DNA of 64,000 nt, from NCBI GenBank assembly GCA_030524525.1, contig JAUNGI010000003.1:58800-122799 (forward strand), read 5' to 3'. Numbering within the stretch: position 1 is the first letter of the stretch; each line of letters opens with the position of its first letter. Positions 9,745-51,338 of this stretch are shown here, piece after piece. This DNA is from Lachnospiraceae bacterium. GTDB taxonomy: Bacteria > Bacillota > Clostridia > Lachnospirales > Lachnospiraceae. The notes under the pieces are model-generated. The model searched no databases, had not been told where the DNA came from, and saw only the letters and a program-made list of their open reading frames with translations. A program made the translations under genes and the position numbers.

Positions 9745-9755
9745 CAGAATCCATA

Positions 9756-10830: not shown

Positions 10831-10850
10831 GTGTACGCCTGTGATATAGG

Positions 10851-10874: not shown

Positions 10875-10884
10875 GGACGAGAAG

Positions 10885-10900
10885 GTTAGCTACGACTAAC
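10885..10900. promoter_or_regulatory. Putative metal-repressor operator 2
   Basis: GTTAGC-TACG-ACTAAC, the same architecture as 9756-9771 with one mismatch in the right half. It lies downstream of the -10, 51 bases before the NEAT gene start, where a repressor could act as a roadblock. Confidence 0.55.
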
Positions 10901-10950
10901 AAGCTTGCAGCTCTGACCCAAGAGGTAAAATTGAAAGGAGAATTTATTCT

Positions 10951-12801: not shown

Positions 12802-12813
12802 CACGCTCGCATG

Positions 12814-12849
12814 GTGACGGCTTCAGCTGATTCCGCTTGAAGCCGTCAC
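12814..12849 (+). terminator. Intercistronic hairpin after the NEAT gene
   Basis: Perfect 12-base arms GTGACGGCTTCA / TGAAGCCGTCAC with a 12-base loop, followed by GATTTT. The T-tract is weak, so it may reduce read-through or protect the 3' end, not terminate fully. Confidence 0.65.
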
Positions 12850-12883
12850 GATTTTGATATGATAAAGGCTTGAGGTGAGATCC

Positions 12884-13639: not shown

Positions 13640-13652
13640 GGAGGAATACGGA

Positions 13653-14564: not shown

Positions 14565-14652
14565 CAGAGAAGTGCCCGCAGCTATGGGGGCTTTTCTCAA
14601 AAATCGTGCGAGTCTTCTACGAATACAAATTTCAAGTCGGGAGGTGTTCTTT

Positions 14653-16417: not shown

Positions 16418-16489
16418 GGAAAAAACGAAACGTGCGGTTAGCGCAAAGCGCTTGGGCGTTTAATACAAAAAAGACGGCGGTGAGATCAT

Positions 16490-18229
16490 ATGATGATAAA
16501 TAAAAGGTTGCTTGGCATGGTTCGCGAAAGTAAAAGATATATAGCGGGAAACGTAATTTTGCAGTGGTGCTCCCTTGCAGCGAATATTGCGATGATGACA
16601 ACTGTCACATATCTTTTGCAGGAGCTGTTCCGAAAAAAAGCGAACGGGAAGACCATTGCCGCGACGGCGGTCGTTGTACTTATTTCGGCAGTGGTTCGCG
16701 TTCTCTGCACAACGGGAGCCAGCAGGATGGGATATCTTTCTTCAAAAGCGGTGAAAAAAACGCTTCGGGAGAGGATATACGGCAAGCTGCTGAGGCTGGG
16801 GACCTCGTACAGCGAACAGGTGAAGACTTCCGAGGTGGTACAGGTCGCCGTGGAAGGCGTGGATCAGCTGGAAACGTATTTCGGCGCTTACCTGCCCCAG
16901 TTCTTTTACGCCATGCTGGCGCCGCTCACCCTGTTCGGGTATCTGTGCTTTGTCAATGTCCCGGCAGCGATCGTCCTGCTTGTGTGCGTGCCGCTGATCC
17001 CCGTCGCGATCGCTGCGGTGCAGACTTGGGCGAAGAAGCTTCTGGCAAAATATTGGGGGCAGTATACGGCGCTGGGCGATACTTTCTTGGAGAACTTACA
17101 GGGATTGACCACACTGAAAATTTATCAGGCGGACGGCTTCAAAAACGAGGAGATGAACCGGGAATCCGAGAACTTCCGAAGGATCACCATGAAGGTGCTG
17201 ACGATGCAGCTCAATTCGATCACGATCATGGACCTGATCGCATACGGCGGCGCGGCGTTGGGCGTGATCATGGCGGCGACGCAGTATAAAAGCGGCAATG
17301 TGTCGCTTGCCGGCTGCCTGCTGATCATTCTTCTTGCGGCGGACTTTTTTATTCCTATGCGTCAGTTGGGTTCCTTTTTTCATATTGCCATGAACGGTAT
17401 GGCGGCGAGCGAAAAAATATTCCGCTTACTTGACCTGCCGGAGGCGGAAAGGAAGGTCGAAAAGGTTTCCTCGGATTGCTCGATCGTGTGCGAGGCGCTG
17501 CATTTCCGCTATGACAGGGACAGAGAAATTCTGCATGGAATTACAATGACCTTTCCGAAGAACTCCTTTACCTCCATCGTAGGCGAATCCGGCTGCGGAA
17601 AGTCCACGGTTGCAGCCGTCCTTATGGGGCGGAACAAGGGCTATTCCGGTTCGGTGAGGATCGGCGGCACGGAGCTTTCCGAAATCGAGGAGGCGAGCCT
17701 GATGAAAAGCATTACCTATGTGGGGCATCAAAGCTATCTGTTCAAGGGAACGGTGCGGGACAATCTCTTGATGGGCAGACCGGATGCGGCGGAGAACGAG
17801 ATGTGGGCGGTGCTGGAACGGGTCGATCTTGCGGACTTTTTACGGGCGGAAAAAGGTCTGGATACCCCTCTGGCAGAAAGGGTGGGCAATCTGTCCGGAG
17901 GGCAGCGCCAGCGGCTTGCCCTTGCGAGGGCGCTGCTTCACGACAGCCCCGTTTATCTTTTCGACGAAGCGACCTCCAATATTGACGTAGAGAGCGAAAA
18001 CGATATTATGCGCGAAATACATGCGCTGGCAAAAAGAAAGACGGTCATTCTTATTTCGCATCGTCTGGCGAATGTAACCGCCTCCGACAACATCTATGTC
18101 ATGGAGAAAGGCGCGGTTGCGGAAAGCGGAAAGCATGAAGAACTGCTCCTGCAAAACGGAGTCTATGCGAGTCTGTGGAACGCGCAGCAAAGTCTGGAGA
18201 ATTACGGAAGGAACGGTGAAGACGCATGA
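16490..18229 (+). CDS. CydD-like ABC transporter, half 1
   Basis: 579 residues: an N-terminal six-helix exporter-type membrane domain (~20-300) and a C-terminal ATPase with Walker A GESGCGKST, NLSGGQRQRLALARALL and VYLFDEAT. The arrangement and the four-base overlap with the next gene indicate a heterodimeric exporter of the CydDC type. CydDC moves thiols or heme; in this heme locus a role in heme or porphyrin handling is plausible, but the substrate is not proven. The 72-base gap after the ATPase gene has no terminator, so it may be part of the same operon. Confidence 0.8.
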   Translation: MMINKRLLGMVRESKRYIAGNVILQWCSLAANIAMMTTVTYLLQELFRKKANGKTIAATAVVVLISAVVRVLCTTGASRMGYLSSKAVKKTLRERIYGKLLRLGTSYSEQVKTSEVVQVAVEGVDQLETYFGAYLPQFFYAMLAPLTLFGYLCFVNVPAAIVLLVCVPLIPVAIAAVQTWAKKLLAKYWGQYTALGDTFLENLQGLTTLKIYQADGFKNEEMNRESENFRRITMKVLTMQLNSITIMDLIAYGGAALGVIMAATQYKSGNVSLAGCLLIILLAADFFIPMRQLGSFFHIAMNGMAASEKIFRLLDLPEAERKVEKVSSDCSIVCEALHFRYDRDREILHGITMTFPKNSFTSIVGESGCGKSTVAAVLMGRNKGYSGSVRIGGTELSEIEEASLMKSITYVGHQSYLFKGTVRDNLLMGRPDAAENEMWAVLERVDLADFLRAEKGLDTPLAERVGNLSGGQRQRLALARALLHDSPVYLFDEATSNIDVESENDIMREIHALAKRKTVILISHRLANVTASDNIYVMEKGAVAESGKHEELLLQNGVYASLWNAQQSLENYGRNGEDA

Positions 18230-35035: not shown

Positions 35036-35097
35036 AAAGGCGAGTAAGAGCGGCTTCGAACCCGTCTCGCAGAAGGAAAAAAGAAGCCGCACGTATT
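35036..35097. repeat. Left fragment of the tRNA-linked 158-bp repeat
   Basis: 62 bases match the second half of the tandem units at 37914-38386 (AAAGGCGAGTAAGAGCGGCT, CGAACCCGTCTCGCAGAA, GAAGCCGCACGTATT). It stops at the unit junction, where the A+T-rich island begins. Confidence 0.88.
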
Positions 35098-37855: not shown

Positions 37856-37913
37856 TGATACGCAACCTTTTCAAAAAAATCAAAGATACTTCCATACTGA
37901 TATCAGCCTTTAT

Positions 37914-38071
37914 GTGCGGCTTCCTTAAAAAATAAAAGCACGAGACGGAGTTCGCCCGTCAAGCGAAGCCCCTTTTTCGCTTGACGTATCGACATTACCG
38001 AGCCGAAAGGCGAGCAAGAGCGGCTTCGACCCCGTCTCGCAGAAAGGAAAAGAGAGAAGCCGCACGTATTT
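37914..38071. repeat. Tandem repeat unit 1 (158 bp) beside tRNA-Gly
   Basis: Begins GTGCGGCTTCCTT, contains the tRNA-Gly 3' end GCACGAGACGGAGTTCG, an inner hairpin TCAAGCGAAG...TTCGCTTGA, GCC-GAAA-GGC, and ends CGAGCAAGAGCGG...GAAGCCGCACGTATTT. Nested inverted repeats run through the unit. Confidence 0.93.
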
Positions 38072-38229
38072 GTGCGGCTTCCTTAAAAATAAAAAGCACG
38101 AGACGGGATTCGCCCGTCCAAGCGAAGCACCTTTTCCGCTTGGACATAGCGACACCGAGCCGAAAGGCGAGTAAGAGCGGCTTCGAACCCGTCTCGCAGA
38201 AGGGAAAAGCAAGAAGCCGCACGTTTTTT
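38072..38229. repeat. Tandem repeat unit 2 (158 bp)
   Basis: Same order as unit 1. Its tRNA-like segment GCACGAGACGGGATTCG is identical to the last 17 bases of tRNA-Gly. The inner hairpin has CCAAGCG / CGCTTGG, i.e. both arms changed relative to unit 1. Confidence 0.93.
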
Positions 38230-38386
38230 GTGCGGCTTCCTTAAAATTAAAAGCACGAGACGGAATTCGCCCGTCAAGCGAAGAATCTTTTTCGCTTGAC
38301 GTATCGACATTACCGAGCCGAAAGGCGAGTAAGAGCGGCTTCGAACCCGTCTCGCAGAAAGGAAAAGAGAGAAGCCGCACGTATTT
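38230..38386. repeat. Tandem repeat unit 3 (157 bp)
   Basis: Same order; directly abuts the GTGCGGCTTCTTT downstream of tRNA-Gly. The junction forms the hairpin GAAGCCGCAC-GTATTT-GTGCGGCTTC, which on the minus strand would be the tRNA terminator. Confidence 0.93.
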
Positions 38387-38410
38387 GTGCGGCTTCTTTA
38401 AAAAAATAAA

Positions 38411-38482
38411 AGCACGAGACGGGATTCGAACCCGCGACCCTCGCCTTGGCAAGGCGATACTCCACCACTGAGCCACTCGTGC
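38411..38482 (-). tRNA. tRNA-Gly (anticodon GCC)
   Basis: 72 bases on the minus strand, from GCACGAGTGGCTCAGTGG to CGGGTTCGAATCCCG and CTCGTGC plus discriminator T. Acceptor GCACGAG / CTCGTGC; anticodon stem TCGCC / GGCGA with loop TTGCCAA gives GCC. CCA is not encoded. A T-rich stretch and the GAAGCCGCAC hairpin follow downstream. Confidence 0.96.
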
Positions 38483-38838: not shown

Positions 38839-39783
38839 ATGAAAGTCACAGTTATTGGTGCAGGCAGCGTGGGAGCTACCATTGCCTACACATTGGCGAC
38901 CAGCGGTACGGCGTCGGACATTTTGCTCATTGACATTAACAAAGAGAAGGCAATGGGCGAGGCCATGGACATTATTCAGGGAGCGCCGTTTATTGCGCCC
39001 ATGACCATTGAAGCCGGTGATTATCCGGATGCGGTAGGCTCCGACGTGGTCATTATCACATCGGGAATTCCCAGAAAGGCAGGCCAGAGCCGCCTTGAGC
39101 TGGCGCAGACGAACGTAAACGTCATGAAGGACATCGCCAGCAAAATTACACCCTATGCAAAGGATGCCGTTTATATTATCGTAAGCAACCCGGTCGATGT
39201 TATGACCTATGTGTTCCACAAGGTTTCCGGAATTCCGGAAAACAAGATCATCGGCTCCGGCACGATTTTGGATACCAGCCGTCTTCGCGCAAAGCTGGCG
39301 GAGATCTACGACGTGAGCCAGACCAACGTACACGCGTATGTTTTCGGTGAGCATGGAGATTCCTCCTTTGCAACCTGGTCGATCGCAAACGTTTCCAACG
39401 TACCGATCGAGCAGTGTAAGGAGAGATTTAAGTTCCAGGACGGCAGACCGTTCCCTGAGCTGAATAAGCCGGAAATCGAAGATTTTGTCAGAAAGTCCGG
39501 CGGAATTATTATTTCGAGAAAGGGCGCGACGTTCTACGCCATCGCGATCTCCGTAAACTATATCGTACAGTGCCTGAGCAAGGCGGTGGATTCCACGATG
39601 ACGGTTTCGACGATGATGCATGGCGCGTACGGAATTAACGACGTATGTCTCAGCACGCTGGCGATCGTCGGCAAGAACGGAGTAGTAGGTCATATCGAGC
39701 TGCCGCTTTCCGATGAGGAAATTGAAAAGCTTCATAAGAGCGCGGACAATCTGAGAAACGTAATCAACAGTCTGGAGTTATAA
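38839..39783 (+). CDS. mdh: LDH-type malate dehydrogenase
   Basis: 314 residues, LDH/MDH superfamily: NAD motif GAGSVGATIAYTL, ILLIDINKEKAMGEAMD, catalytic His in EHGDSS, and KGATFYAIA. The substrate loop reads SGIPRKAGQSR; Arg79 sits where lactate dehydrogenases have Gln102, and arginine there is known to favour oxaloacetate/malate. Together with fumarase next door and fumarate reductase downstream this supports malate dehydrogenase over lactate dehydrogenase, although the overall sequence is LDH-like. The ATG at 38839 follows GAGAGG. Confidence 0.8.
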   Translation: MKVTVIGAGSVGATIAYTLATSGTASDILLIDINKEKAMGEAMDIIQGAPFIAPMTIEAGDYPDAVGSDVVIITSGIPRKAGQSRLELAQTNVNVMKDIASKITPYAKDAVYIIVSNPVDVMTYVFHKVSGIPENKIIGSGTILDTSRLRAKLAEIYDVSQTNVHAYVFGEHGDSSFATWSIANVSNVPIEQCKERFKFQDGRPFPELNKPEIEDFVRKSGGIIISRKGATFYAIAISVNYIVQCLSKAVDSTMTVSTMMHGAYGINDVCLSTLAIVGKNGVVGHIELPLSDEEIEKLHKSADNLRNVINSLEL

Positions 39784-39789
39784 TTTGAT

Positions 39790-39833
39790 TCTGAGTGCAG
39801 TGCTTCCCGATTTGCGGAGAAGCGCTGCATTTG
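39790..39833 (+). terminator. Partial terminator between mdh and fumarase genes
   Basis: TGCAGTGCTTC / GAAGCGCTGCA stem (one G-T pair) followed by TTTGATT. Probably leaky, since the following genes lack another promoter. Confidence 0.5.
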
Positions 39834-39855
39834 ATTGATAGAAAGGATGGAATTT

Positions 39856-41232
39856 ATGGAGTATCGGATCGAACACGATTCCATGGGCGAAGTGAAGGTT
39901 CCGGCCGATAAATATTGGGCCGCGCAGACCGAACGAAGCCATGAGAATTTCCTGATCGGCGTGGGGATCGAGACCATGCCGCGGGAGATCACCCATGCCT
40001 TCGGCGTCCTGAAAAAGGCGGCTGCGATCGCCAACCACGCGCTGAAGCCCGAAAAGATGACGGCGGAAAAGCTTGCCGCAATTTCTCAGGCGTGCGACGA
40101 GGTCATGAGCGGAAGTCTGAACGAGCATTTCCCTCTTGTTGTATGGCAGACCGGCAGCGGTACGCAGTCCAACATGAACGCAAACGAGGTCATTGCCAAC
40201 CGCGGCAACGAGATCGCCGGCGCAAAGCTGCTGCATCCGAACGACGACATCAATATGTCGCAGTCCTCGAACGACACGTTTCCCACGGCAATGCATATCG
40301 CGGCGGTTCTGGGGATCGAGGACAAGCTGTTTCCGGCGCTCAATCTGCTGATCGGAACGCTTAAGCGTCTGGAGGAAGAAAACGAAGGAATCGTCAAGAG
40401 CGGGCGTACGCACCTGCAGGATGCGACGCCGATCAAATTTTCACAGGAGATCAGCGGCTGGAGAACGAGTCTGGAGCGCGACAAGCAGATGCTTTCGCTT
40501 TCTCTTCCGGTTCTGAAGGAGCTGGCACTGGGCGGTACGGCGGTCGGGACCGGTCTGAATGCGCCGAAGGGCTTTGACGCAAAGGTTGCCGAGGCGGTTT
40601 CGGAAATTACCGGAAAGACGTTTGTCACGGCGCCGAATAAGTTCCACGCATTGACCTCGAAGGACGAGCTGGTGTTTGCGCACGGGGCGCTGAAGGGACT
40701 GGCGGCGGATCTTATGAAGATCGCCAACGATATCCGCTGGCTGGCAAGCGGCCCGAGAGACGGTCTGGGAGAGATCTTTATTCCGGAGAACGAGCCGGGC
40801 TCCTCGATCATGCCGGGCAAGGTGAATCCGACCCAGTGCGAGGCGGTTACGATGGTTGCCGTGCAGGTAATGGGCAACGACGTGGCGGTGGGTATGGCGG
40901 CAAGTCAGGGCAATTTCGAGCTGAACGTTTTCATGCCGGTATGTATTTATAATTTCCTGCAGTCGGTTCGTCTGCTTTCCGAAGCCATGGTTTCCTTCAA
41001 CAACAACTGTGTTGTTGGTATTCGCGCAAACAAGGAGAAGATGGAGCATAACCTGCACAATTCTCTGATGCTTGTAACGGCGCTGAATCCGTACATCGGC
41101 TACGAAAATGCAGCCAAGACCGCTAAGAAGGCATTTAAGGACAACATCTCCCTGAAGCAGGCATGCGTGGAGCTGGGCTTCCTGACGGAGGAGCGGTTCG
41201 ACGAGGTGTTCCATCCGGAGCAGATGGTGTAA
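39856..41232 (+). CDS. fumC: Class II fumarase
   Basis: 458 residues from the ATG at 39856. Motifs: TGSGTQSNMNANEVIANR, HPNDDINMSQSSNDTFPTAMH, KSGRTHLQDATPI and the superfamily signature GSSIMPGKVNPTQCEA. This is the iron-free, oxygen-stable tetrameric type that interconverts fumarate and malate. In this context it runs from malate to fumarate to supply the fumarate reductase. An upstream in-frame TTG is less likely because it has no ribosome site. Confidence 0.95.
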   Translation: MEYRIEHDSMGEVKVPADKYWAAQTERSHENFLIGVGIETMPREITHAFGVLKKAAAIANHALKPEKMTAEKLAAISQACDEVMSGSLNEHFPLVVWQTGSGTQSNMNANEVIANRGNEIAGAKLLHPNDDINMSQSSNDTFPTAMHIAAVLGIEDKLFPALNLLIGTLKRLEEENEGIVKSGRTHLQDATPIKFSQEISGWRTSLERDKQMLSLSLPVLKELALGGTAVGTGLNAPKGFDAKVAEAVSEITGKTFVTAPNKFHALTSKDELVFAHGALKGLAADLMKIANDIRWLASGPRDGLGEIFIPENEPGSSIMPGKVNPTQCEAVTMVAVQVMGNDVAVGMAASQGNFELNVFMPVCIYNFLQSVRLLSEAMVSFNNNCVVGIRANKEKMEHNLHNSLMLVTALNPYIGYENAAKTAKKAFKDNISLKQACVELGFLTEERFDEVFHPEQMV

Positions 41233-41328
41233 CGGTTACCTGTTGTTTACCGGCGGCTTTGATAAATATGCGTATCAGGGCCGCTGATTTAAGAGAGCGT
41301 ATCGCATGCGCAGATAGGAAAAAGAGTT

Positions 41329-42111
41329 ATGGTTTATAGTTATTTCCCCGGATGTACGTTGAAAAACAAAGCGTCTGACCTTGATATGTATGCAAGAAAA
41401 TCTGCTGAAGTTCTCGGAATCACAATGGAAGAAATCGAAGAATGGCAGTGCTGCGGCGGCGTATACCCGCTGGGCGCCAACGAGACGGCTCCGAAGCTGG
41501 CTTCCGTTCGCGCGCTCGTGGCGGCAAGGGAAAAGGGACAGGATCTGCTGACCCTGTGCTCCGCCTGTCATCATGTGCTGAAGCGTGTCAACAATGACAT
41601 GGCCGAGAATGAGAATATTCGCACAAAAGCAAACAATTACATGCAGCTGGAAACTCCCTACAGCGGAGAAACGAAGGTCGTACATTATTTGGAAATGCTT
41701 CGCGACGTGGTCGGCTTCGATCAGTTAAAGGCAAAGGTGGTCAATCCGCTGAAGGGCAAAAAGATCGGGGCATATTACGGCTGCCTGCTGCTCCGCCCGT
41801 CGAAGGTGCTGGGAATGGACAATCCGGAAAATCCCACGATCATTGAGGATTTCATCAAAGCGATCGGCGCGGTTCCGGTGATCTATCCTTACCGCAACGA
41901 ATGCTGCGGCGGCTATATGACGATGGAGAACAAGGAGCTGGCAAAGAAAAAGAGCAACACGGTTCTGGAGAGCGCAAAGGAAAACGGCGCGGAATGTGTG
42001 ATCACCGCCTGTCCCCTCTGTATGTACAACCTGAAGGTCAACGGAGGCGTGGACGACTTGCCGGTTTATTATTTCACCGAGCTGTTGGCAGAAGCGCTTG
42101 GCGTGAAATAG
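41329..42111 (+). CDS. hdrB: HdrB-like heterodisulfide reductase subunit
   Basis: 260 residues with two CCG domains: CTLKNKA..., EWQCCGGVYPLG, LCSACHHV and then YYGCLLL, NECCGGYMTME, ACPLCMYNL. In characterised HdrB these cysteines hold two noncubane [4Fe-4S] clusters that reduce a disulfide. No methanogen thiols are expected here, so the natural acceptor is open. Gene order HdrB-HdrC-HdrA and the Flx genes after it indicate a multisubunit electron-transfer complex. Confidence 0.92.
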   Translation: MVYSYFPGCTLKNKASDLDMYARKSAEVLGITMEEIEEWQCCGGVYPLGANETAPKLASVRALVAAREKGQDLLTLCSACHHVLKRVNNDMAENENIRTKANNYMQLETPYSGETKVVHYLEMLRDVVGFDQLKAKVVNPLKGKKIGAYYGCLLLRPSKVLGMDNPENPTIIEDFIKAIGAVPVIYPYRNECCGGYMTMENKELAKKKSNTVLESAKENGAECVITACPLCMYNLKVNGGVDDLPVYYFTELLAEALGVK

Positions 42112-42123
42112 AGGAGGTAGAGT

Positions 42124-42516
42124 ATGGAAAACAACGAAAAGGAATTAGCACAGCTCATACAGGAAATCAGCGGACTGAATCCGAAAAAATGTATGAAATG
42201 CGGCAAATGTTCCGGCGCCTGTCCCGCATTTCACGAAATGGAATATCATCCGCATCAGTTTGTCGATATGGTGGATCGCGGAGACGTCAATAAGCTTCTG
42301 GCGTCGAAGTCCATTTGGATGTGTCTCTCCTGCTTTGCCTGCGTGGAACGATGTCCCCGTGACGTAAAGCCGGCAAACTTTATCGAGGCTGCCAGACTGG
42401 CACTGATCCGTCAGCAGGGCTGCAACCATCTGAAGGACGAGGCGGTTCCCGCCCTTCTGGATGACGAGCTGCCCCAGCAGGCGATCGTCAGCGCATACCG
42501 TAAGTATAAGAAGTAA
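42124..42516 (+). CDS. hdrC: HdrC-like 4Fe-4S subunit
   Basis: 130 residues with two ferredoxin-type motifs: CMKCGKCSGACP and CLSCFACVERCPRDVKP. It bridges electrons between HdrA and HdrB. The gene begins 12 bases after hdrB with GAGGAGG, and hdrA follows after 15 bases. Confidence 0.93.
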   Translation: MENNEKELAQLIQEISGLNPKKCMKCGKCSGACPAFHEMEYHPHQFVDMVDRGDVNKLLASKSIWMCLSCFACVERCPRDVKPANFIEAARLALIRQQGCNHLKDEAVPALLDDELPQQAIVSAYRKYKK

Positions 42517-42531
42517 GAGAGGAGAAAAGAC

Positions 42532-44520
42532 ATGCAAAGAATTGGTGTATTTGTATGCTGGTGCGGAAGCAACATTGCTGCCACGGTGGATGTGCAGCAG
42601 GTTTCCGACGCGCTGGCGAAAGAGCCGGGTGTCGTCTATTCTACCAATTATCAGTATATGTGTTCCCAGTCCGGACAGCAGATGATTCAGGATGCGATCA
42701 AGGAACATCACCTGACCGGTATCGTCATCTGCTCCTGTTCGCCGCGGATGCACGAGACGACCTTCCGGAAGACGGCGGCTGCCGCCGGGATCAATTCCTA
42801 CATGGTGGAAATTGCAAACATCCGCGAGCAGTGTTCGTGGATCCACAAAAACAAAGAAGAAGCTACCGAAAAGGCGATCATTCTGGGACGTGCGGCGATC
42901 GCAAAGGTACATCTGAACGCACCGCTGACCGCAGGAGAAAGTCCGGTCGTTAAGCGCGCACTCGTGATCGGCGGCGGTATCGCCGGAATTCAGACGGCGC
43001 TCGACATTGCCGACGCGGGCTTTGAGGTCGATATCGTGGAGAAGAAGCCGACGATCGGCGGTAAGATGGCGCAGATCGACAAGACGTTCCCGACGCTCGA
43101 CTGTGCGGCCTGCATCCTGACCCCGAAGATGGTGGATGTGGCGCAGAACGAGAAGATCCACATTTATTCCTACAGCGAGGTCGAGTCGGTCAAGGGCTTT
43201 GTCGGCAACTTTACCGCAACGATCAAGAAAAAGGCGAGATACGTTAAAGAGGATATTTGTACGGGCTGCGGTCTGTGTACCGAGAAATGCCCGATGAAGA
43301 AGGTGCCGAACGAGTTCAACCAGATGCTGGATAACCGGACGGCGATCTACATCCCGTTCGCTCAGGCGGTTCCGAAGGTGGCGACGATCGACCCGAACGC
43401 CTGCATGATGCTGAAGAACGGCAAGTGCGGCGTCTGCTCGAAGGTTTGTACCGCAGGGGCGATCGACTACACGCAGAAGGACGAGTTCATCGAACAGCAG
43501 TACGGCGCGATCGTCGTTGCGACGGGCTTCAATACGATCAAGCTTGACAACTTCGACGAGTTCGCATACTCCCAGAGTCCGGACGTTGTAACGAGCTTGG
43601 AGTTCGAGCGTCTGATGAATGCTGCCGGCCCCACCGGCGGAACGCTGCTGCGTCCTTCGGATCATACGCATCCGCATACGCTCGTATTCGTACAGTGCGT
43701 GGGCTCCCGGGACGTTTCCGGCTGCGGAAAGCCTTACTGCTCAAAGATCTGCTGTATGTATACGGCAAAGCACGCGATGCTCTGCCGCGAGAAATACCCG
43801 GATACCGAGGTTTATGTATTTTACATCGACGTTCGTACGCCCGGCAAGAACTTTGACGAATTCTATCGCCGTGCGGTAGAGGAATACGGCGTGCATTATA
43901 TCAAGGGTATGGTCGGCAAGGTGGCGCCGAAGAACGGCAAGCTGATGGTGCAGGCTTCCGATCTGCTGGCAAACGATCAGCTTATGATCGAAGCGGACAT
44001 GGTCGTTCTGGCGACCGCGATCGAGCCGGACGAGTCGGCAAGAAGCATCGCCACGATGCTGACCGCCAGCATGGATACGAACGACTTCTTCACCGAAGCG
44101 CATCCGAAGCTGCGTCCGGTAGAGAGCCCCACGGCAGGTATTTTCCTTTCCGGCGTCTGTCAGGGACCGAAGGATATTCCGGAAACGGTATCTCAGGCAA
44201 GCGCGGCGGCGTCCAAGGTCATCGGACTGCTGGTAAAGGATAAGCTGACCTGCAACCCGTGCGTTGCCGAATCCAACGAAATGATGTGCAACGGCTGCTC
44301 CGCATGCGAAAAGGTTTGTCCTTACGGAGCGATCACTTACAGCGATAAAGAATTCCGGACGCCGTACCGTACGACGATCATGCGCCGCGTGGCATCCGTC
44401 AACCCGGCGGTTTGTCAGGGCTGCGGTGCTTGTACCGTGGCTTGTCCTTCCGGCGCAATGGATCTGAAGGGATTCTCGACGAGACAGATTATGGCGGAGG
44501 TAGATGCGATATGCAAGTAG
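42532..44520 (+). CDS. hdrA: HdrA-like flavin subunit (electron bifurcation site)
   Basis: 662 residues, normal HdrA size. N-terminal GVFVCWCGSNIA, then a thioredoxin reductase-like FAD domain (ALVIGGGIAGIQTALDIADAGFEVDIVEKKPTIGGKMAQ, then FPTLDCAACILTP). Inserted and C-terminal ferredoxin motifs: CTGCGLCTEKCPMKK, CSKVC, CNGCSACEKVCPYGA, CQGCGACTVACPSGA. In characterised complexes the HdrA FAD splits electron pairs between ferredoxin and a high-potential acceptor. It overlaps the flxD gene, so subunits are translationally coupled. Confidence 0.95.
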   Translation: MQRIGVFVCWCGSNIAATVDVQQVSDALAKEPGVVYSTNYQYMCSQSGQQMIQDAIKEHHLTGIVICSCSPRMHETTFRKTAAAAGINSYMVEIANIREQCSWIHKNKEEATEKAIILGRAAIAKVHLNAPLTAGESPVVKRALVIGGGIAGIQTALDIADAGFEVDIVEKKPTIGGKMAQIDKTFPTLDCAACILTPKMVDVAQNEKIHIYSYSEVESVKGFVGNFTATIKKKARYVKEDICTGCGLCTEKCPMKKVPNEFNQMLDNRTAIYIPFAQAVPKVATIDPNACMMLKNGKCGVCSKVCTAGAIDYTQKDEFIEQQYGAIVVATGFNTIKLDNFDEFAYSQSPDVVTSLEFERLMNAAGPTGGTLLRPSDHTHPHTLVFVQCVGSRDVSGCGKPYCSKICCMYTAKHAMLCREKYPDTEVYVFYIDVRTPGKNFDEFYRRAVEEYGVHYIKGMVGKVAPKNGKLMVQASDLLANDQLMIEADMVVLATAIEPDESARSIATMLTASMDTNDFFTEAHPKLRPVESPTAGIFLSGVCQGPKDIPETVSQASAAASKVIGLLVKDKLTCNPCVAESNEMMCNGCSACEKVCPYGAITYSDKEFRTPYRTTIMRRVASVNPAVCQGCGACTVACPSGAMDLKGFSTRQIMAEVDAICK

Positions 44521-44957
44521 ACGAGACGAAAGAATTTAAGCCGACGATTGTTGCCTTCTGTTGCAACTGGTGTTCCTATGCCGGCGCCGACCTTTCGGGT
44601 ACCAACCGGCTGAATTATCCTGCAAACGTAAAGATCATCCGCGTACCCTGCTCCTGCCGGGTCAACCCGATGTTCATTCTTCGGGCGTTCCAGCGCGGCG
44701 CGGACGGCGTGATCATGTGCGGCTGCCATCCGGGAGACTGCCATTACACGTCCGGAAATTACTACGCAAGAAGAAGAATGACCCTGCTGTTCAGTATGCT
44801 GGACTTCCTCGGGATCGAGAAGGAGCGTACAAGAGTAGAGTGGGTTTCCGCTGCGGAGGGTGCGAAGTTTGCCGCGACGATGAACGATTTCGTGGCAACG
44901 ATCACCAAGCTGGGCGAGAACCGCAGATTGGAGGATATAAGATGCAAGAAGCAATGA
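44511..44957 (+). CDS. flxD: MvhD/FlxD-type 2Fe-2S subunit
   Basis: 148 residues. Conserved cysteines FCCNWCSYAGADL, VPCSCRVNP and MCGCHPGDCHY match the MvhD delta subunit, which passes electrons to HdrA through a [2Fe-2S] cluster. ATG 44511 lies inside the end of hdrA with GGAGG at 44496-44500. No [NiFe] hydrogenase genes follow, so electrons come from another module, the FlxA-type protein. Confidence 0.92.
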   Translation: MQVDETKEFKPTIVAFCCNWCSYAGADLSGTNRLNYPANVKIIRVPCSCRVNPMFILRAFQRGADGVIMCGCHPGDCHYTSGNYYARRRMTLLFSMLDFLGIEKERTRVEWVSAAEGAKFAATMNDFVATITKLGENRRLEDIRCKKQ

Positions 44958-45910
44958 TAAAACGTGCAAAAGAATTGCTTGCGGACGGAACCGTAAACCG
45001 GGTCATGGGCTGGCAGGCAGGCGAGTTTGCCTACGATATCACGCCTACGGTTTTTTCCTCCGCAGACGAGCTTGACAAGTCGTTTGTATATAATGACTTT
45101 TGCAGCGCAAACGTGTCCAAATATATGATCAACGAGAGCCGGAAGGACGGCAAGATCCTCTGCTTCCTGAAGCCCTGCGACTCCTACAGCTTCAATCAGC
45201 TTCTGGCGGAGCATCGGATCTGGCGGGATCATGTATATATCATCGGCATCCCGAGCTACGGCAAGGTGGATGTGAATAAGGTTCGCGCAAAGGGCGTGAC
45301 CGGTATCACCGGCATCCGCACCGAGGGTGCAAACGTGGTTGTGGAGACGATCTACGGCCCGGAGACGATGGTAAAAATGGACGTGATGGAAGACCGCTGC
45401 CTTTGCTGCAAGAGTAAGAAGCATATGGTTTACGACGAGCTGATCGGCGAAGAAGGCGACGTAATGGAAAGCAGCCGCTTTGATATGGTGGAGAAGCTGG
45501 AAAACATGACGCCCGAAGAACGGTACGAGTTCTGGAGAGGCGAGCTTTCCAAGTGTATCCGCTGCAACGCCTGCCGAAACGTATGTCCGGCATGCACATG
45601 CGAAAACTGTGTTTTCGATAACCCGAACTCCGGGATCGCCAACAAGGCGCCGTCCTCGGATTTTGAAGAAAACATGTTCCATATTATCCGCGCGTTCCAT
45701 GTGGCGGGCCGCTGTACCGACTGCGGCGAATGTTCCAGAGTATGTCCGCAGAACATTCCGCTGCACCTGCTGAACCGCAAGTTCATCAAGGATATCAACG
45801 AGCTGTACGGCACCTATCAGGCGGGCGAGGACGTGAACGCCAGAGGGCCGCTGACGAACTATACCGTAGATGACTGCGAGCCGAGCATCGTTCATCACAG
45901 AAGGGGGTAG
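44942..45910 (+). CDS. Flx-type 4Fe-4S electron-transfer subunit
   Basis: 322 residues from ATG 44942, overlapping flxD. The N-terminal ~200 residues resemble hydrogenase/dehydrogenase beta-type proteins (FCSANVSKYMINES, FLKPCDSYSFNQLL, RCLCCKSKKHMVYDE). The C-terminal part has two ferredoxin motifs, CIRCNACRNVCPACTCENC and CTDCGECSRVCPQNIP. It fits one of the two Fe-S subunits (FlxB/FlxC) of the flavin oxidoreductase module described in Desulfovibrio; which one is uncertain. Confidence 0.82.
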   Translation: MQEAMIKRAKELLADGTVNRVMGWQAGEFAYDITPTVFSSADELDKSFVYNDFCSANVSKYMINESRKDGKILCFLKPCDSYSFNQLLAEHRIWRDHVYIIGIPSYGKVDVNKVRAKGVTGITGIRTEGANVVVETIYGPETMVKMDVMEDRCLCCKSKKHMVYDELIGEEGDVMESSRFDMVEKLENMTPEERYEFWRGELSKCIRCNACRNVCPACTCENCVFDNPNSGIANKAPSSDFEENMFHIIRAFHVAGRCTDCGECSRVCPQNIPLHLLNRKFIKDINELYGTYQAGEDVNARGPLTNYTVDDCEPSIVHHRRG

Positions 45911-45916
45911 AGAAAT

Positions 45917-46942
45917 ATGTTAAAGGTTTCCGTAGATAAGATAAACGATCTTTTCCGGGCCATTGCGGCTACCCAGAAGCTGTTCCTTCCGGTGGACACC
46001 AATGCCGGAGCCCAGTACCGGGAATGGAGCGAGGGCGTGACGATGAGTCAGGCGCTGAACACCAACCGCAGTGCAAAGGATTTCTTCTTCCCGCAGACAG
46101 AGAATCTGGCTGAGTTCAAGGTGGAAGGAAAGAAAATTGAAGTAAAGCCTCAGGTAAACGAATACGAGGACTTCGTCGTTTTTGGCGTTCGCGCCTGCGA
46201 CGCGGCAAGCTTTGCCATTCTTGACCGCGTATTCCTGAGCGAGCCGGTCGATACGTTCTACGAGCATCGGAGAACGCACGGCACGATCGTTACGCTTGCC
46301 TGCAACCGTCCCGCAGAAACCTGCTTCTGCACGACCTTCGGCATTGATCCGGCGGTTCCGGGCGGAGACGTGAGCGCATGGCAGATGGGCGACGTCTTAT
46401 ATCTGGAGGCGCAGAACGAGAAGGGACAGAAGCTTCTTGACGCGGTGAACGCCGAGCTTTCCGAGGCGCCTGCCGATGCGGCGGAGCCGGTAAAGGCAGC
46501 CATCCGGGTGATGATGGAGAAGCTTCCGCTTGCCAACCTGAGCCTGAAGGGGATCGAAGACCAGAAGATGCTCGATCTGTTCTATTCGGACAAATGGAAG
46601 GGGCTTTCCGAGAGCTGCCTTGGCTGCGGAACGTGTACGTTCGTATGTCCGACGTGCCAGTGCTACGATGTGCGCGATTTCGACACAGGAAACGGCATTC
46701 AGAGATTCCGCTGCTGGGACTCCTGCATGTACTCCGACTTTACGAGAATGGCGCACGGCAATATCCGGAATTCGCAGATGGAGCGTTTCCGTCAGCGGTT
46801 CATGCATAAGCTGGTTTACTTCCCGGAGAACAACGAAGGCATTTATTCCTGTGTGGGCTGCGGCCGCTGCCTTGCGAAGTGCCCGATCCACATGAATATC
46901 GTAAAAGTGATCAAGACGATGGGAGGGACTGAAAATGAGTGA
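45917..46942 (+). CDS. Flx/AsrA-type 4Fe-4S subunit
   Basis: 341 residues. FGVRACDAASFAILDRVF and CNRPAETCFCTTFG are shared with anaerobic sulfite reductase subunit A and formate/hydrogenase Fe-S proteins. Ferredoxin motifs CLGCGTCTFVCPTCQC and CVGCGRCLAKCPIH are in the C-terminal third. It is probably the partner of the FlxA-type flavoprotein encoded next, with which it overlaps by eight bases. No sulfite reductase catalytic subunit (AsrC) is present. Confidence 0.85.
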   Translation: MLKVSVDKINDLFRAIAATQKLFLPVDTNAGAQYREWSEGVTMSQALNTNRSAKDFFFPQTENLAEFKVEGKKIEVKPQVNEYEDFVVFGVRACDAASFAILDRVFLSEPVDTFYEHRRTHGTIVTLACNRPAETCFCTTFGIDPAVPGGDVSAWQMGDVLYLEAQNEKGQKLLDAVNAELSEAPADAAEPVKAAIRVMMEKLPLANLSLKGIEDQKMLDLFYSDKWKGLSESCLGCGTCTFVCPTCQCYDVRDFDTGNGIQRFRCWDSCMYSDFTRMAHGNIRNSQMERFRQRFMHKLVYFPENNEGIYSCVGCGRCLAKCPIHMNIVKVIKTMGGTENE

Positions 46943-47768
46943 ACGATTTGACCCGTTGATCCCAATGGTAGGTATTGTAACGGATATCCGCGTGGACACT
47001 CCCGACGTTAAGACGTTCCGCGTGGAAGCGCCGGAGGGGGGCAAGGTATTTGAGCATATCCCCGGACAGTGCGCGATGCTTTCCGTTCCCGGCGTCGGCG
47101 AAGGTATGTTCTCCATTACCTCGTCTCCGACCCAGAAGGACTACATGGAATTCAGCATTAAAAAATGCGGCTGCGTGACCTCTTGGCTGCACAGCATGGA
47201 GGTCGGTCAGATGATTACCATCCGCGGGCCTTACGGCAACGGCTTCCCGGTCGATACGGATTTCCGGGGAAAGGACATGGTATTCATTGCCGGCGGTATC
47301 GGACTTGCGCCGCTGCACTCCGTGATCAACTACGTGCGGGATAAGCGCGATCAGTACGGAACCATCGACGTGGTTTACGGCTCCCGAAGCGCCGACGACT
47401 TGGTGGATTTCCCGGAGATCCAGAACGTTTGGTGCAAGGAAGAGGGCATGAACGTGCATCTGACGATCGACCGTGAGCAGGAAGGCTGGGACGGTCATGT
47501 GGGCTTCGTTCCCAACTATGTAAAGGAGCTGGGCTTCGACTCGAGCAAGACCTTTATCATCTGCGGACCGCCGATCATGATCAAGTTCACGCTGGCAGGT
47601 CTCGTTGAGATGGGCATTGCCAAGGAGCAGGTTTATACGACCATGGAGCTGAAAATGAAGTGCGGCATCGGCAAGTGCGGCCGCTGCAATATTGGTGACA
47701 AGTATGTGTGCAAGGATGGTCCGGTGTTCCGTTGCGACCAGATTGACGAAATGACGAATGAATACTAG
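46935..47768 (+). CDS. flxA: FlxA/AsrB-type FAD-NAD(P)H-binding subunit
   Basis: 277 residues, ferredoxin reductase-like. FAD region (HIPGQCAMLSVPGVGEGMFSITSSP), NAD(P) region (FIAGGIGLAPLHSVINYV, FIICGPPIMIKFTL) and a C-terminal PyrK-like [2Fe-2S] motif CGIGKCGRCNIG...C. It should be the NAD(P)H entry point of the Hdr-Flx complex. NADH or NADPH preference cannot be judged by eye. Confidence 0.9.
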   Translation: MSERFDPLIPMVGIVTDIRVDTPDVKTFRVEAPEGGKVFEHIPGQCAMLSVPGVGEGMFSITSSPTQKDYMEFSIKKCGCVTSWLHSMEVGQMITIRGPYGNGFPVDTDFRGKDMVFIAGGIGLAPLHSVINYVRDKRDQYGTIDVVYGSRSADDLVDFPEIQNVWCKEEGMNVHLTIDREQEGWDGHVGFVPNYVKELGFDSSKTFIICGPPIMIKFTLAGLVEMGIAKEQVYTTMELKMKCGIGKCGRCNIGDKYVCKDGPVFRCDQIDEMTNEY

Positions 47769-47780
47769 GAGGTAAACATC

Positions 47781-48455
47781 GTGAGTGATATGTGCAACAT
47801 TTTCCTCTTTGGGAAAAAATATGAGGTTCCTTCCAATCTGACGATTATGAAGGCGATGGAGTATGCAGGATATCAGCTGGTTCGCGGCTGCGGATGCAGA
47901 AACGGTTTCTGCGGAGCCTGCGCAACGATCTACCGGATCGCCGGCGACCGTGAGCTGAAGGCATGTCTGGCTTGCCAGACGAAGGTAGAAGAAGGGATGT
48001 ACATTGCGACCCTTCCGTTCTTCCCGCTGGTAAAGCCGGTCTATGACATTGAAAAGGTGTCCCCGACGCAGGCGATCATGATGCAGCTTTTCCCGGAGAT
48101 CTACTCCTGCATCGGCTGCAACGCATGTACAAAGAGCTGTACGCAGAGCCTGAACGTAATGCAGTACATCGCATACGCGCAGCGCGGAGATTTCGAAAAG
48201 TGTGCCGAGGAGTCGTTTGACTGCGTTATGTGCGGCGTATGTTCCTCCCGCTGTCCTGCCGGTATCAGCCATCCGCAGGTCGCAATGCTGGCGCGCCGCT
48301 TGAACGGCAAGTACCTTGCTCCCAAGTGCGAGCATCTGAACAACCGGGTTGCCGAGATCAACGAGGGAACCTTTGACAAGCTGATTGAGGATCTGATGGG
48401 CAAGCCTATTGCAGAGATCAAGGAGCTTTACAATAACAGAGAAATCGAAAAGTAG
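47781..48455 (+). CDS. frdB: Fumarate reductase iron-sulfur subunit
   Basis: 224 residues, GTG start after AGGAGG. The N-terminal domain has a plant-type 2Fe-2S site (RGCGCRNGFCGAC...CLAC), followed by CIGCNACTKSC and CVMCGVCSSRCPAG for further clusters. This is the SdhB/FrdB layout, though the spacing and N terminus are unusual and the protein lacks the HdrB-like tail of methanogen thiol:fumarate reductase. It is followed after 12 bases by the flavoprotein gene. No membrane-anchor genes are nearby, so the enzyme is probably soluble. Confidence 0.85.
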   Translation: MSDMCNIFLFGKKYEVPSNLTIMKAMEYAGYQLVRGCGCRNGFCGACATIYRIAGDRELKACLACQTKVEEGMYIATLPFFPLVKPVYDIEKVSPTQAIMMQLFPEIYSCIGCNACTKSCTQSLNVMQYIAYAQRGDFEKCAEESFDCVMCGVCSSRCPAGISHPQVAMLARRLNGKYLAPKCEHLNNRVAEINEGTFDKLIEDLMGKPIAEIKELYNNREIEK

Positions 48456-48467
48456 GAGGTGCTTACC

Positions 48468-50063
48468 ATGTATACTGAGGAAATGCTTGAGTTAATGAAG
48501 GTGGTGGAAGCCAAGAGAGCGGCGAATGCGGCTCTTGAGCCGACCCGTATGACGGCAGACGAGAAAGAGGCACTTCTGGCACAGTACCATCCGGATCACA
48601 AGGCGGAGGAGTTCAAGGAGCTGCTGATCGGCCCGAACAAGGGCGGAAAGGTTCCCAACGAGCTGGCGGATATGCTGCAGGCAAACAGCCGGATCCGTGA
48701 AATGAACATCGACCTGTCCAATCCGGACTATGAGACCGACGTTTTGATTATCGGCGCGGGCGGCGCGGGAACCTCCGCGGCGATCGAGGCGGATAAAAAC
48801 GGCGCGAGAGTTATGATCGTAACGAAGCTTCGTATGGGCGACGCCAATACGATGATGGCGGAGGGCGGAATTCAGGCTGCCGACAAGGAGAACGATTCTC
48901 CGGCGATCCACTATGTGGATGCTTTCGGCGGCGGACATTTCGCGGCGAAGCCCGAGCTTGTTGCCAAGCTTGTAACGAAGGCTCCGGAGGCGATCCAGTG
49001 GCTGTCCGAGCTGGGCGTTGAGTTTGACAAGACCGAAGACGGCACGATGGTAACGACCCATGGCGGCGGAACGAGCCGCAAGAGAATGCACGCCTGCAAG
49101 GACTACTCCGGAGCGGAGATCATGAGAACGCTTCGCGACGAGGTTCTGAACCGTCAGATCCCGGTTGTGGATTTTACCGCAGCCATTGAGATCATCAAGG
49201 ACGATAAGGGCGCTGCTGCCGGTGCGGTTCTGATGAATATGGAGACGAAGGAAATTCTCGTTGCCAAGGCAAAGACCGTAATTATCGCCACGGGCGGAGC
49301 CGGACGCGTACATTATCAGGGCTTCCCGACCTCCAACCACTACGGCGCGACCGCGGACGGTCTGGTGCTGGCTTATCGTGCGGGCGCAAAGCTCCGCGAC
49401 GTGGATACGCTCCAGTATCATCCCACCGGCGCGGCTTTTCCGGAGCAGATCTTCGGCGCCCTCGTTACCGAGAAGGTTCGTTCCCTCGGCGCTAAGCTTG
49501 TGAACATAGACGGCGAAGTATTTATGAACCCGCTGGAGACCCGCGACGTGACGGCGTCCTCCATCATTCGCGAATGCTCCACCAGAGGCAAGGGCATTCC
49601 GACGCCGGAGGGCGTTGGTATCTGGCTTGACACGCCGATGATCGAGCTGAAAAACGGCGAAGGTACGATCATGAAGCGGATCCCGGCAATGTACCGTATG
49701 TTCGCAAAATACGGCATCGACATCCGCAAGCAGCCGATCCTCGTTTATCCGACGCTGCATTATCAGAACGGCGGCGTAGAGGTGACGACCGACAGTATGA
49801 CCAATATCGAGAACCTCTATGTGGCGGGCGAGGCAGCCGGCGGCGTACACGGACGGAACCGTCTGATGGGCAACTCTCTGCTGGACGTGATCGTATTCGG
49901 ACGGAATGCCGGTCAGTTCGCAAGTGAGAAGTCCAAGAGCGTAACGGTGGGCAGTCTGACCCTTTCCCATGTGGCGGATTTCGCAAAGGAAATGGCGGAC
50001 GCAGGCATTGAAACCGAACAGGTTTCTCCGATGCTGCTGCCGAACTACGCGCGGAAAAACTAA
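48468..50063 (+). CDS. frdA: Fumarate reductase flavoprotein subunit
   Basis: 531 residues from ATG 48468 (GGAGGT upstream). FAD motif VLIIGAGGAGTSAAIEADKNGA, then THGGGTSRKRMHACKDYSGAEIM, QYHPTGAAF and the active-site stretches LHYQNGGVEVTTD and VHGRNRLMGNSLLD expected of SdhA/FrdA. An N-terminal ~80-residue helical extension precedes the FAD domain and could dock to partners. It reduces fumarate to succinate. Its position as the last catalytic gene after HdrABC-Flx suggests that complex is its electron source. Confidence 0.9.
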   Translation: MYTEEMLELMKVVEAKRAANAALEPTRMTADEKEALLAQYHPDHKAEEFKELLIGPNKGGKVPNELADMLQANSRIREMNIDLSNPDYETDVLIIGAGGAGTSAAIEADKNGARVMIVTKLRMGDANTMMAEGGIQAADKENDSPAIHYVDAFGGGHFAAKPELVAKLVTKAPEAIQWLSELGVEFDKTEDGTMVTTHGGGTSRKRMHACKDYSGAEIMRTLRDEVLNRQIPVVDFTAAIEIIKDDKGAAAGAVLMNMETKEILVAKAKTVIIATGGAGRVHYQGFPTSNHYGATADGLVLAYRAGAKLRDVDTLQYHPTGAAFPEQIFGALVTEKVRSLGAKLVNIDGEVFMNPLETRDVTASSIIRECSTRGKGIPTPEGVGIWLDTPMIELKNGEGTIMKRIPAMYRMFAKYGIDIRKQPILVYPTLHYQNGGVEVTTDSMTNIENLYVAGEAAGGVHGRNRLMGNSLLDVIVFGRNAGQFASEKSKSVTVGSLTLSHVADFAKEMADAGIETEQVSPMLLPNYARKN

Positions 50064-50079
50064 AGTAAAAAATTACAAA

Positions 50080-50108
50080 AGGAACCTGTCTTTTTAGGGC
50101 AGGTTCCT
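50080..50108 (+). terminator. Hairpin after frdA
   Basis: AGGAACCTG / CAGGTTCCT stem, weak T content after it. It probably reduces but does not stop transcription into the exporter gene. Confidence 0.55.
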
Positions 50109-50135
50109 GTATTGTGAGCAGGAAAGGGAAATTCC

Positions 50136-51338
50136 ATGGAATATTTGGGTGATATCGTAACCTCTTGGTTAGGTAACGGAATTTTTTATGTGTTTATAAT
50201 CCTTGCGCTGGGATACTTGATCGGGGGAATCAAGATCAAGGGCATTTCCTTAGGAGACGCTGGGGTTCTGGTCGTTGCCCTGATCTTCGGTATTGTTTCT
50301 TATGAACTGGGGGGACAGTTCTCGATCGGAGACAAGAGCATTGATCTCTACAACGACGACGCGTTCAAAGCTACGTTTAAGCTGGTTTCCAATCTGGGTA
50401 CGGCGATGTTCGTGACCTCGGTGGGCCTGATCGCGGGACCGAAGTTTTTCCGAAGCTTCAACAAAAAGATGCTGGCTTATATCGTGATGGGAATTGCGGT
50501 TATCGGCTCGGCGTCCGTCGTGACTCTTGTGGCAATCAAGGCGTTCGGCATCGACGCGTCCACCGCAGTCGGTCTTTTGACCGGCGCGCTGACTTCCACA
50601 CCGGGCTTTTCGGCTGCAAAGGAGGTGGCGAGCGTCAACGAGGAGGCGGTCACTGCGGGCTACGCAATCGCATACCTGTTCGGCGTTTTGGGCGTCGTTT
50701 TGTTTGTACAGATCCTTCCGAAGCTTCTGAAGGTCAACATTGAAGAAGAAAGGAAGAACTTTATTGCCGCCAGCACGGTCGAGGCGGCAAAAAGCAAAAA
50801 GAATTACGTCTCCGTTGACGGTATGGGGCTTTTCCCCTTTACGCTTGCGGTGGCGTTCGGTTATATGATCGGCTGCATCAAGATTCCGGGCATCAACTTC
50901 TCCTTCGGAGCTTCCGGCGGAACGCTGATCGCCGGTCTGATCCTTGGACATTTCGGACACATCGGACCGCTGAACTGCCAGATCAAGAAGGACACGCTGA
51001 ACTTCATGCGCGAGATCGGTCTTGTGCTGTTTTTGGTCGGCGCGGGAGTTCCGGGCGGCTACAGCTTCATCAGCCATATCACGCTGAAATACTTTATCGT
51101 GGGCATTCTGATGACGCTGATCCCGATGATCATCGGGTATCTGGTCGCCAGATACATATTCAAGCTTTCGATCTTCAACAACCTCGGCTCGATCACCGGC
51201 GGCATGACCAGCACGCCCGCGCTCGGCGCGCTGATCAGCGTTGCGGGAACGGACGATGTGGCAAGCGCTTATGCGGCGACCTATCCCATGGCGCTGATCC
51301 TGATCGTGCTTGCGGCAAAGGTACTGGTGCTGCTGTAG
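50136..51338 (+). CDS. AspT/SucE-family transporter lacking TrkA-C domains
   Basis: 400 residues with two related halves of about five helices each. Each half has the family pattern (GLLTGALTSTPGFSAAKEV and GSITGGMTSTPALGALIS). Relatives in the aspartate:alanine exchanger family normally carry one or two TrkA-C domains between the halves; here only a ~40-residue loop (NIEEERKNFIAASTVEAAKSKK region) is present. SucE of Corynebacterium, a succinate exporter, belongs to this family. Its place directly after frdA makes succinate or dicarboxylate efflux the best guess. Confidence 0.75.
   Translation: MEYLGDIVTSWLGNGIFYVFIILALGYLIGGIKIKGISLGDAGVLVVALIFGIVSYELGGQFSIGDKSIDLYNDDAFKATFKLVSNLGTAMFVTSVGLIAGPKFFRSFNKKMLAYIVMGIAVIGSASVVTLVAIKAFGIDASTAVGLLTGALTSTPGFSAAKEVASVNEEAVTAGYAIAYLFGVLGVVLFVQILPKLLKVNIEEERKNFIAASTVEAAKSKKNYVSVDGMGLFPFTLAVAFGYMIGCIKIPGINFSFGASGGTLIAGLILGHFGHIGPLNCQIKKDTLNFMREIGLVLFLVGAGVPGGYSFISHITLKYFIVGILMTLIPMIIGYLVARYIFKLSIFNNLGSITGGMTSTPALGALISVAGTDDVASAYAATYPMALILIVLAAKVLVLL

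Follow-up and report, generated by a model that had tools for sequence, protein, structure and literature searches.

A conserved hdr-flx-frd operon of gut Clostridia and a putative bifurcating route to succinate

Gene content of the hdr-flx-frd locus

A 64,000-nucleotide stretch of DNA from a Lachnospiraceae bacterium (the window; GenBank assembly GCA_030524525.1, contig JAUNGI010000003.1, positions 58,800 to 122,799, forward strand) carries, at positions 38839–51338, a locus of twelve genes in which an Hdr-Flx module is followed by the two subunits of a fumarate reductase (FrdAB). As set out below, this locus probably encodes a soluble, quinone-independent NADH:fumarate/ferredoxin bifurcating reductase, in which HdrBC would pass high-potential electrons to FrdB, together with the enzymes that feed it. 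The stretch comes from contig C48 of a 2.65-Mb genome (62 contigs, 97.3% complete) and, because the genome is about 97% complete, single gene absences are not taken as proof. Gene families were assigned by Pfam and NCBIfam profile searches with curated cut-offs, together with PDB matches for selected proteins, and residue conservation was counted over matches covering at least 90% of each gene. All twelve genes were found on the plus strand, their positions agreeing exactly or nearly so (a few bases) with an initial annotation of this DNA, and coordinates and families confirmed the gene set claimed there (mdh, fumC, hdrBCA, flx genes, frdBA and an AspT-like gene on one strand, tightly spaced or overlapping):

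38839..39783, + strand: mdh, NAD-dependent malate dehydrogenase of the LDH/MDH family (Pfam Ldh_1_N/C)
39835..41232, + strand: fumC, class II fumarase, start uncertain (Pfam Lyase_1, FumaraseC_C)
41329..42111, + strand: hdrB, two CCG domains (PF02754 twice; PDB 8rvv_B, 5odc_B)
42124..42516, + strand: hdrC, 2x4Fe-4S electron relay (Fer4_8)
42532..44520, + strand: hdrA, FAD-containing, proposed bifurcation site (678 bits to 5odc_A over residues 3–659)
44511..44957, + strand: flxD, MvhD-like (PF02662, 188 bits; 5odc_D, 174 bits)
44942..45910, + strand: flxC-like 4Fe-4S protein (Fer4_8 at residues 202–273)
45917..46942, + strand: flxB, HydB/AsrA-like 4Fe-4S protein (Fer4_22; NF040829, 180 bits, below cut-off)
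46935..47768, + strand: flxA, FAD/NAD(P)H oxidoreductase, presumed electron entry (NAD_binding_1, FAD_binding_6, DHODB_Fe-S_bind; best PDB match 9nez_C, sulfhydrogenase gamma)
47781..48455, + strand: frdB, 2Fe-2S and two 4Fe-4S clusters (Pfam Fer2 and Fer4 models)
48459..50063, + strand: frdA, fumarate reductase flavoprotein (NCBIfam matches to TfrA/SdhA/NadB, none of the 25 listed over cut-off)
50136..51338, + strand: AspT-type carrier, candidate succinate exporter (TIGR01625, two stretches)

From hdrB through frdA, neighbouring genes either overlapped (hdrA/flxD, flxD/flxC and flxB/flxA) or lay at most 15 bp apart (hdrB-hdrC 12 bp, hdrC-hdrA 15 bp, flxC-flxB 6 bp, flxA-frdB 12 bp, frdB-frdA 3 bp), and a gap of 72 bp separated frdA from the carrier gene. 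The ATG codons of flxD and flxC were placed at 44511 and 44942, and more than one start candidate was seen for fumC (TTG 39835, ATG 39847, ATG 39856) and frdA (GTG 48459, ATG 48468). A scan of the locus for promoters and terminators gave counts no different from those of shuffled sequence, a result that says nothing on transcription. In agreement with the initial annotation, no hydrogenase gene was recognised among the twelve genes, nor was a membrane anchor of the FrdC, FrdD or SdhC type by Pfam or NCBIfam models. The top NCBIfam score of HdrB was with NF042965 (152 bits, cut-off 500), which describes SdhE as the anchor subunit of 8-methylmenaquinol:fumarate reductase, followed by an HdrB model (146 bits, cut-off 345).

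All seven Flx-Hdr gene types (FlxABCD-HdrABC) were present and clustered in the locus, and HdrA, HdrB and FlxD are homologues of subunits in solved HdrABC complexes. HdrA was collinear with solved HdrA (5odc_A) over its whole length, and 19 of the 20 cysteine positions checked as well as Lys413 were invariant (86 rows), Cys398 being the variable one; which of these cysteines bind clusters is our assumption. The ten cysteines of HdrB that were assigned to two non-cubane clusters were each kept in 86–87 of 87 rows, and CCG domains were found in no other protein of the genome. The eight cysteines of HdrC were kept in 84/84 rows, while Cys267 of FlxA and Cys18, Cys50 and Cys71 of FlxD were not invariant.

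Twelve cysteines checked in FrdB were each present in 114–115 of 115 rows, and the FrdA residues H321, T337, E338, R362, H434 and R468, placed by alignment with 1nek and forming the catalytic set, occurred in 120/120 rows. At the position of the histidine that binds FAD covalently in SdhA/FrdA proteins, FrdA has Asn130, an asparagine in 119 of 120 rows and a histidine in one. Curated family cut-offs were not reached: FrdA scored 290 of 567 bits with TIGR01812 (SdhA/FrdA), 344.8 of 718 with TfrA and 234 of 1100 with the 8-methylmenaquinol:fumarate reductase model, whose partner model hdrB likewise missed (152/500). The first part of the TfrB model NF004898 matched frdB (36.6/385 bits) and its second part hdrB (38.1/385 bits), both below cut-off; as TfrB is one chain in methanogens, this double match is a hint of HdrB-FrdB contact. 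At its N-terminus FrdA is extended by about 75 residues, and this extension is confidently folded in the predicted model (pLDDT 84); fold matches to this model were found, with only residues 74–526 spanned by at least a fifth of the PDB rows. FrdA was the one FrdA-type protein in the genome at E ≤ 1e-20, with no second FrdA-like protein.

For the flanking genes, the mdh product passed two L-lactate dehydrogenase (L-LDH) cut-offs and, narrowly, one malate dehydrogenase cut-off. An arginine occupies the LDH-102 position, which we take to be the site of substrate specificity for Mdh versus LDH, in this protein and in all 46 homologues above 45% identity, so that the enzyme likely acts on malate. 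The carrier has 400 residues. It matches the duplicated AspT domain in two stretches and lacks the middle of the 562-position AspT model.

Conservation of the operon and other partners of FrdAB

The hdr-flx-frd synteny that the initial annotation had proposed looking for was found in other genomes. Named genomes were scanned with a FrdA alignment, and the best 80 of at least 578 confirmed FrdA relatives (the named loci) were examined; as best-ranked matches these describe close homologues, and counts take in only loci with enough flank. The order hdrB-hdrC-hdrA-flxD-flxC-flxB-flxA-frdB-frdA was complete in 61/61 such loci, the flxC-like gene being in place in every one, and the 19 loci cut by contig ends were all consistent with it. 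Directly 5' of hdrB lay fumC in 56 of 57 loci (L140 being without it), the AspT-type carrier followed frdA in 51 of 65, and mdh was found upstream in 35 of 55. The best named FrdA relatives came for the most part from bins assigned to Clostridia, Oscillospiraceae or Ruminococcus, many of them of animal-gut origin, and the operon carriers include Ruminococcus flavefaciens FD-1 (L103). The operon was also seen in contigs binned as Treponema and Spirochaetaceae (the spirochaete bins L093 and L132) and as Bacteroidaceae (L122); in the FrdA tree described below, L093 and L132 grouped with the Clostridia clade, within it (L122 was outside the tree set), pointing to lateral transfer or mis-binning.

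Among 391 genomes of the same class, which like the phylum sample below were drawn evenly and are not prevalence estimates, FrdA (counted at E ≤ 1e-120) was present in 54 and HdrA in 54, with both in 52 as against about 7.5 expected (54x54/391), which excludes chance linkage. The two genes were on one contig in 46 of these 52 genomes and on different contigs in six; their distance was 3.94–4.19 kb in 45 of the 46, the remaining genome (G662) having frdA on the opposite side. Four genomes had just one of these proteins: G471, G754, G435 and G427, the last with an HdrA of greater distance (49%) and without FrdA. A search of 60 relatives seeded with HdrA yielded nine genomes, with frdBA in place in eight and the ninth locus (L156) cut by a contig end; the best flxB piece of L157 covered only 29%, frdA of L163 was cut at a contig end, and fumC was not found in L160–L163. 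In the genus itself, HdrA was present in 4 of 21 other genomes, whereas a window gene about 37 kb from the operon had relatives of 72–89% in 20 of the 21, indicating a scattered distribution of the operon, brought about by transfer or loss. A chance neighbourhood or assembly artefact was considered and rejected, since the same-genus genome G353 (HdrA 98%) carries the whole operon and that distant window gene is so widely kept in the genus.

A broader sample of 32 loci, fetched with their flanks from across the phylum, showed FrdAB in other company. frdB adjoined frdA in 30 of them, L050 ending at a contig end and L059 giving no match. The complete set, as hdrCBA-flxDCBA-frdBA, was present in one locus (L061); nine had hdrA and flxD upstream, and not flxB and flxA (for L045, the hdrA is no more than a partial hdrA-like match); four had frdBA ahead of hdrBCA-flxD; and three (L037, L046, L055) had hdrC-hdrB-frdB-frdA, their fetched sequence matching neither hdrA nor flx genes. 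No hdr gene was found near frdA in the other 15, of which L049, L050 and L053 have less than 3 kb upstream. On a quick FrdA tree of 56 rows (the window, all 32 phylum loci, 16 of the 80 named loci and seven of the nine HdrA-seeded relatives; alignment A3 has 32 rows), the complete Hdr-Flx layout needed two changes, one for a 24-row gut clade and one for L061, in which the order of hdrC and hdrB is swapped relative to that clade. Two separate assemblies of the complete Hdr-Flx-Frd set may be read from this, and the reading is suggestive only, because L061 sits on a long branch.

Taking these layouts together, we see about an even chance of the following broader picture. FrdAB, with non-covalent FAD and a folded N-terminal extension, would be a soluble module that reduces fumarate at the end of different electron chains, having been joined in evolution to the complete Hdr-Flx set (apparently on two occasions), to Hdr plus an additional HdrA-like protein, to HdrBC by itself, and to membrane Fe-S/FMN/haem modules. 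Its Hdr-Flx version would be, in gut Clostridia, a common quinone-free route to succinate in which electrons pass directly from HdrB to FrdB with no thiol between.

Several individual loci deserve mention. HdrB of L037, L046 and L055 keeps all ten cluster cysteines, and TRAP-type transporter genes lie upstream in L037 by open reading frame (ORF) reading. In L033, a 1092-residue protein read as HdrA-like (7931–11209, minus strand) lies between hdrA and flxD, and genes read from their ORFs as 2-oxoacid:ferredoxin oxidoreductase and SucC-like follow 3' of frdA. ORF reading also placed frdBA beside membrane Fe-S and FMN-binding proteins in L034 (6766–10203, with multihaem proteins as well) and L043 (6380–8361), possibly a membrane-fed version of the same FrdAB. 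Finally, genome G091, which already has frdBA (L043), carries a second, divergent FrdA (L059, 3986–5623, minus strand) with no frdB match alongside and, by ORF reading, TRAP-type transporter genes nearby.

Proposed electron path and alternative explanations

The most economical reading of the locus is NADH-driven, quinone-independent fumarate reduction with ferredoxin as a second acceptor. Mdh would convert oxaloacetate to malate, FumC malate to fumarate and FrdAB fumarate to succinate, and the AspT-type carrier, judged by its gene context, may let succinate out. By analogy with homologues, FlxA would take electron pairs from NADH, FlxB, FlxC and FlxD would relay them to the HdrA flavin, and this flavin would split the pairs, sending low-potential electrons to ferredoxin. 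The high-potential electrons would run from HdrC through HdrB to FrdB, FrdA and fumarate, a wire and a stable complex to which the gene context points. The net reaction would be 2 NADH + fumarate + ferredoxin(ox) -> 2 NAD+ + succinate + ferredoxin(red). Calculated from E0' values given in passages of PMC5861303 and PMC12773636, the energetics per fumarate come to about -68 kJ for NADH to fumarate and +15 to +35 kJ for NADH to ferredoxin, a net of about -33 to -53 kJ.

The remainder of the genome was searched for markers of quinone, ferredoxin and thiol metabolism. No rnfC over cut-off and no RnfD/NqrB family member was found in it, so reduced ferredoxin would mainly serve an [FeFe] hydrogenase and biosynthesis. 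One [FeFe] hydrogenase is encoded elsewhere in the genome, with a NuoF-like gene adjoining (by ORF reading), as in NADH/ferredoxin-linked HydABC enzymes. Genome-wide, no MenD passed its cut-off (one match, 76.5 of 244 bits), and neither an MqnA-type protein nor DsrC was found. Two parts of the earlier interpretation held: hdr-flx and frd form one conserved unit, by synteny, and the genome shows neither MqnA nor a MenD over cut-off. Three findings suggest the direct HdrB-FrdB link: some loci have the layout hdrCB-frdBA, the TfrB model matches both proteins, and DsrC was not found.

A number of observations weigh against this proposal. The 15 phylum loci without a detected hdr gene indicate that FrdAB is not Hdr-dependent in general. 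In a comparison of evolutionary distances (mirror-tree; 62 loci and the window), the FrdA-HdrA correlation (0.79) was no higher than that of FumC and HdrA (0.80) and adds nothing specific. The top score of hdrB with SdhE, a subunit of a quinone-linked enzyme, lowered our confidence slightly, far below cut-off as it is. We found no biochemistry on this FrdAB family in the literature searched and, for the similar operon of the heat-loving succinate producer Pseudoclostridium thermosuccinogenes discussed below, up-regulation was not significant for all subunits (PMC7282089).

It is unlikely that the Flx-Hdr-Frd complex reduces fumarate with NADH without bifurcation, HdrA being a mere conduit. NADH to fumarate is indeed exergonic without coupling, and the full Hdr-Flx set stood beside frdBA in only one of the 32 phylum loci; against this stand the collinearity of HdrA with 5odc_A and the invariance of nearly all its checked cysteines and of Lys413, and a path through nine subunits would be a high price to pay where coupling is unnecessary. 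Quite unlikely, too, is an operon without a common complex, in which Hdr-Flx reduces a soluble disulfide and FrdAB has another donor. Methanogen HdrB cleaves a disulfide with its non-cubane clusters, both sites of which are retained here, and FrdAB can occur with no hdr gene found nearby, but the genome has no DsrC, and the near-constant hdrA-frdA spacing, the hdrCB-frdBA layout and the TfrB match to both proteins favour a direct link.

Operation of the system in reverse, with succinate oxidised, ferredoxin supplied in the reduced form and NADH made, appears very improbable. Such enzyme types can be reversible, and in L033 a related frdBA lies beside the genes read as 2-oxoacid:ferredoxin oxidoreductase and SucC; yet the window genes neighbour a reductive C4 route and a carrier, and the covalent-FAD histidine is replaced by asparagine in all but one of the 120 sequences. 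In E. coli FrdA, losing the covalent FAD bond spares fumarate reduction and not succinate oxidation. We give almost no credence to an SdhE-like HdrB, with FrdAB-HdrBC fed by quinol (for example acquired from neighbouring gut bacteria) and Flx-HdrA as a side branch: the SdhE score of hdrB slightly exceeds its HdrB score and in three loci no hdrA was found with hdrCB-frdBA, but 152 bits is far under the 500-bit cut-off, neither MqnA nor a MenD over cut-off was found in the genome, and window-type loci retain the full NADH-side set.

Related systems and other features of the window

The bifurcating NADH:fumarate/ferredoxin reductase proposed here resembles several known systems. FlxABCD-HdrABC of Desulfovibrio vulgaris, which has the same seven gene types as the window, is reportedly an NADH dehydrogenase/heterodisulfide reductase, as the title of a 2015 paper by Ramos has it. 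A thiol/disulfide protein presumably serves it as high-potential acceptor; in the window, by contrast, FrdAB is encoded adjacent, and DsrC was not found in the genome. Methanogen TfrAB likewise joins an HdrB-type part to a soluble Frd, but the window proteins are far below the TfrA and TfrB cut-offs, HdrB is a separate protein, and HdrA and Flx are present. For vent symbionts, a complex of the products of tfrAB, korABCD and flxABCD-hdrABC is suggested in PMC6315080; compared by their description there, the clusters have Frd-type genes interspersed with flx-hdr, like the window, whereas their reverse TCA context differs, and L033 looks similar to them in content by ORF reading.

The closest counterpart is the "succinate operon" of P. 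thermosuccinogenes, described in PMC7282089 as comprising a fumarase (RS03365), a Flx-Hdr complex (RS03360-30), a fumarate reductase (RS03325-20) and a hypothetical protein that is possibly a succinate transporter (RS03315). There, the fumarate reductase is assumed to be linked to ferredoxin reduction, with a 2019 preprint cited. By these locus tags, gene types and counts (seven Flx-Hdr tags if numbered in fives, and two Frd tags) as well as block order (fumarase, Flx-Hdr, two Frd, transporter) are the same as in the window, with the difference that Mdh is not listed in that description; the comparison covers gene types and locus tags, and its Frd is a putative homologue of the window FrdAB. 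The initial annotation had known of no described complex of this composition, a claim that does not hold, as both such an operon and the ferredoxin-coupling idea had been published (PMC7282089). The window system thus adds one more case, by now a widespread one, to a kind that had already been proposed. What is new here is the breadth in gut bacteria, the possible second assembly and the varied partners of FrdAB: in the literature searched, which left most subscription papers outside, we found no report of a bifurcating-Frd operon in R. flavefaciens or gut Clostridia or of the varied FrdAB contexts.

If the proposal is true, flavin-based bifurcation would have fumarate as a further high-potential acceptor beside crotonyl-CoA and heterodisulfides, and NADH-driven succinate formation in gut bacteria without a quinone route would be explained, with half of the electrons kept at the ferredoxin level for H2 or biosynthesis. 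R. flavefaciens is a cellulose degrader long known as a succinate producer. Models of rumen and gut fermentation, in which electron transport-linked phosphorylation is said to accompany fumarate reduction as a coupled process (PMC7174568), would also see their energy and hydrogen balances change.

Elsewhere in the window, positions 10951–18229 encode a NEAT-domain protein, a FecCD permease and a CydD-like ABC gene (406 of 435 bits), possibly a haem/iron uptake cluster, in a genome where both quinone markers tested were not found. Positions 37913–38482 hold a tRNA-Gly (gcc) on the minus strand, then three copies of a repeat of about 158 bp. Each of them includes hairpins and a short stretch copied from the 3' end of the tRNA, and a piece of about 62 bp occurs again at 35036–35097. 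Among the fetched loci, only L155 and L157 matched this region, over the tRNA alone.

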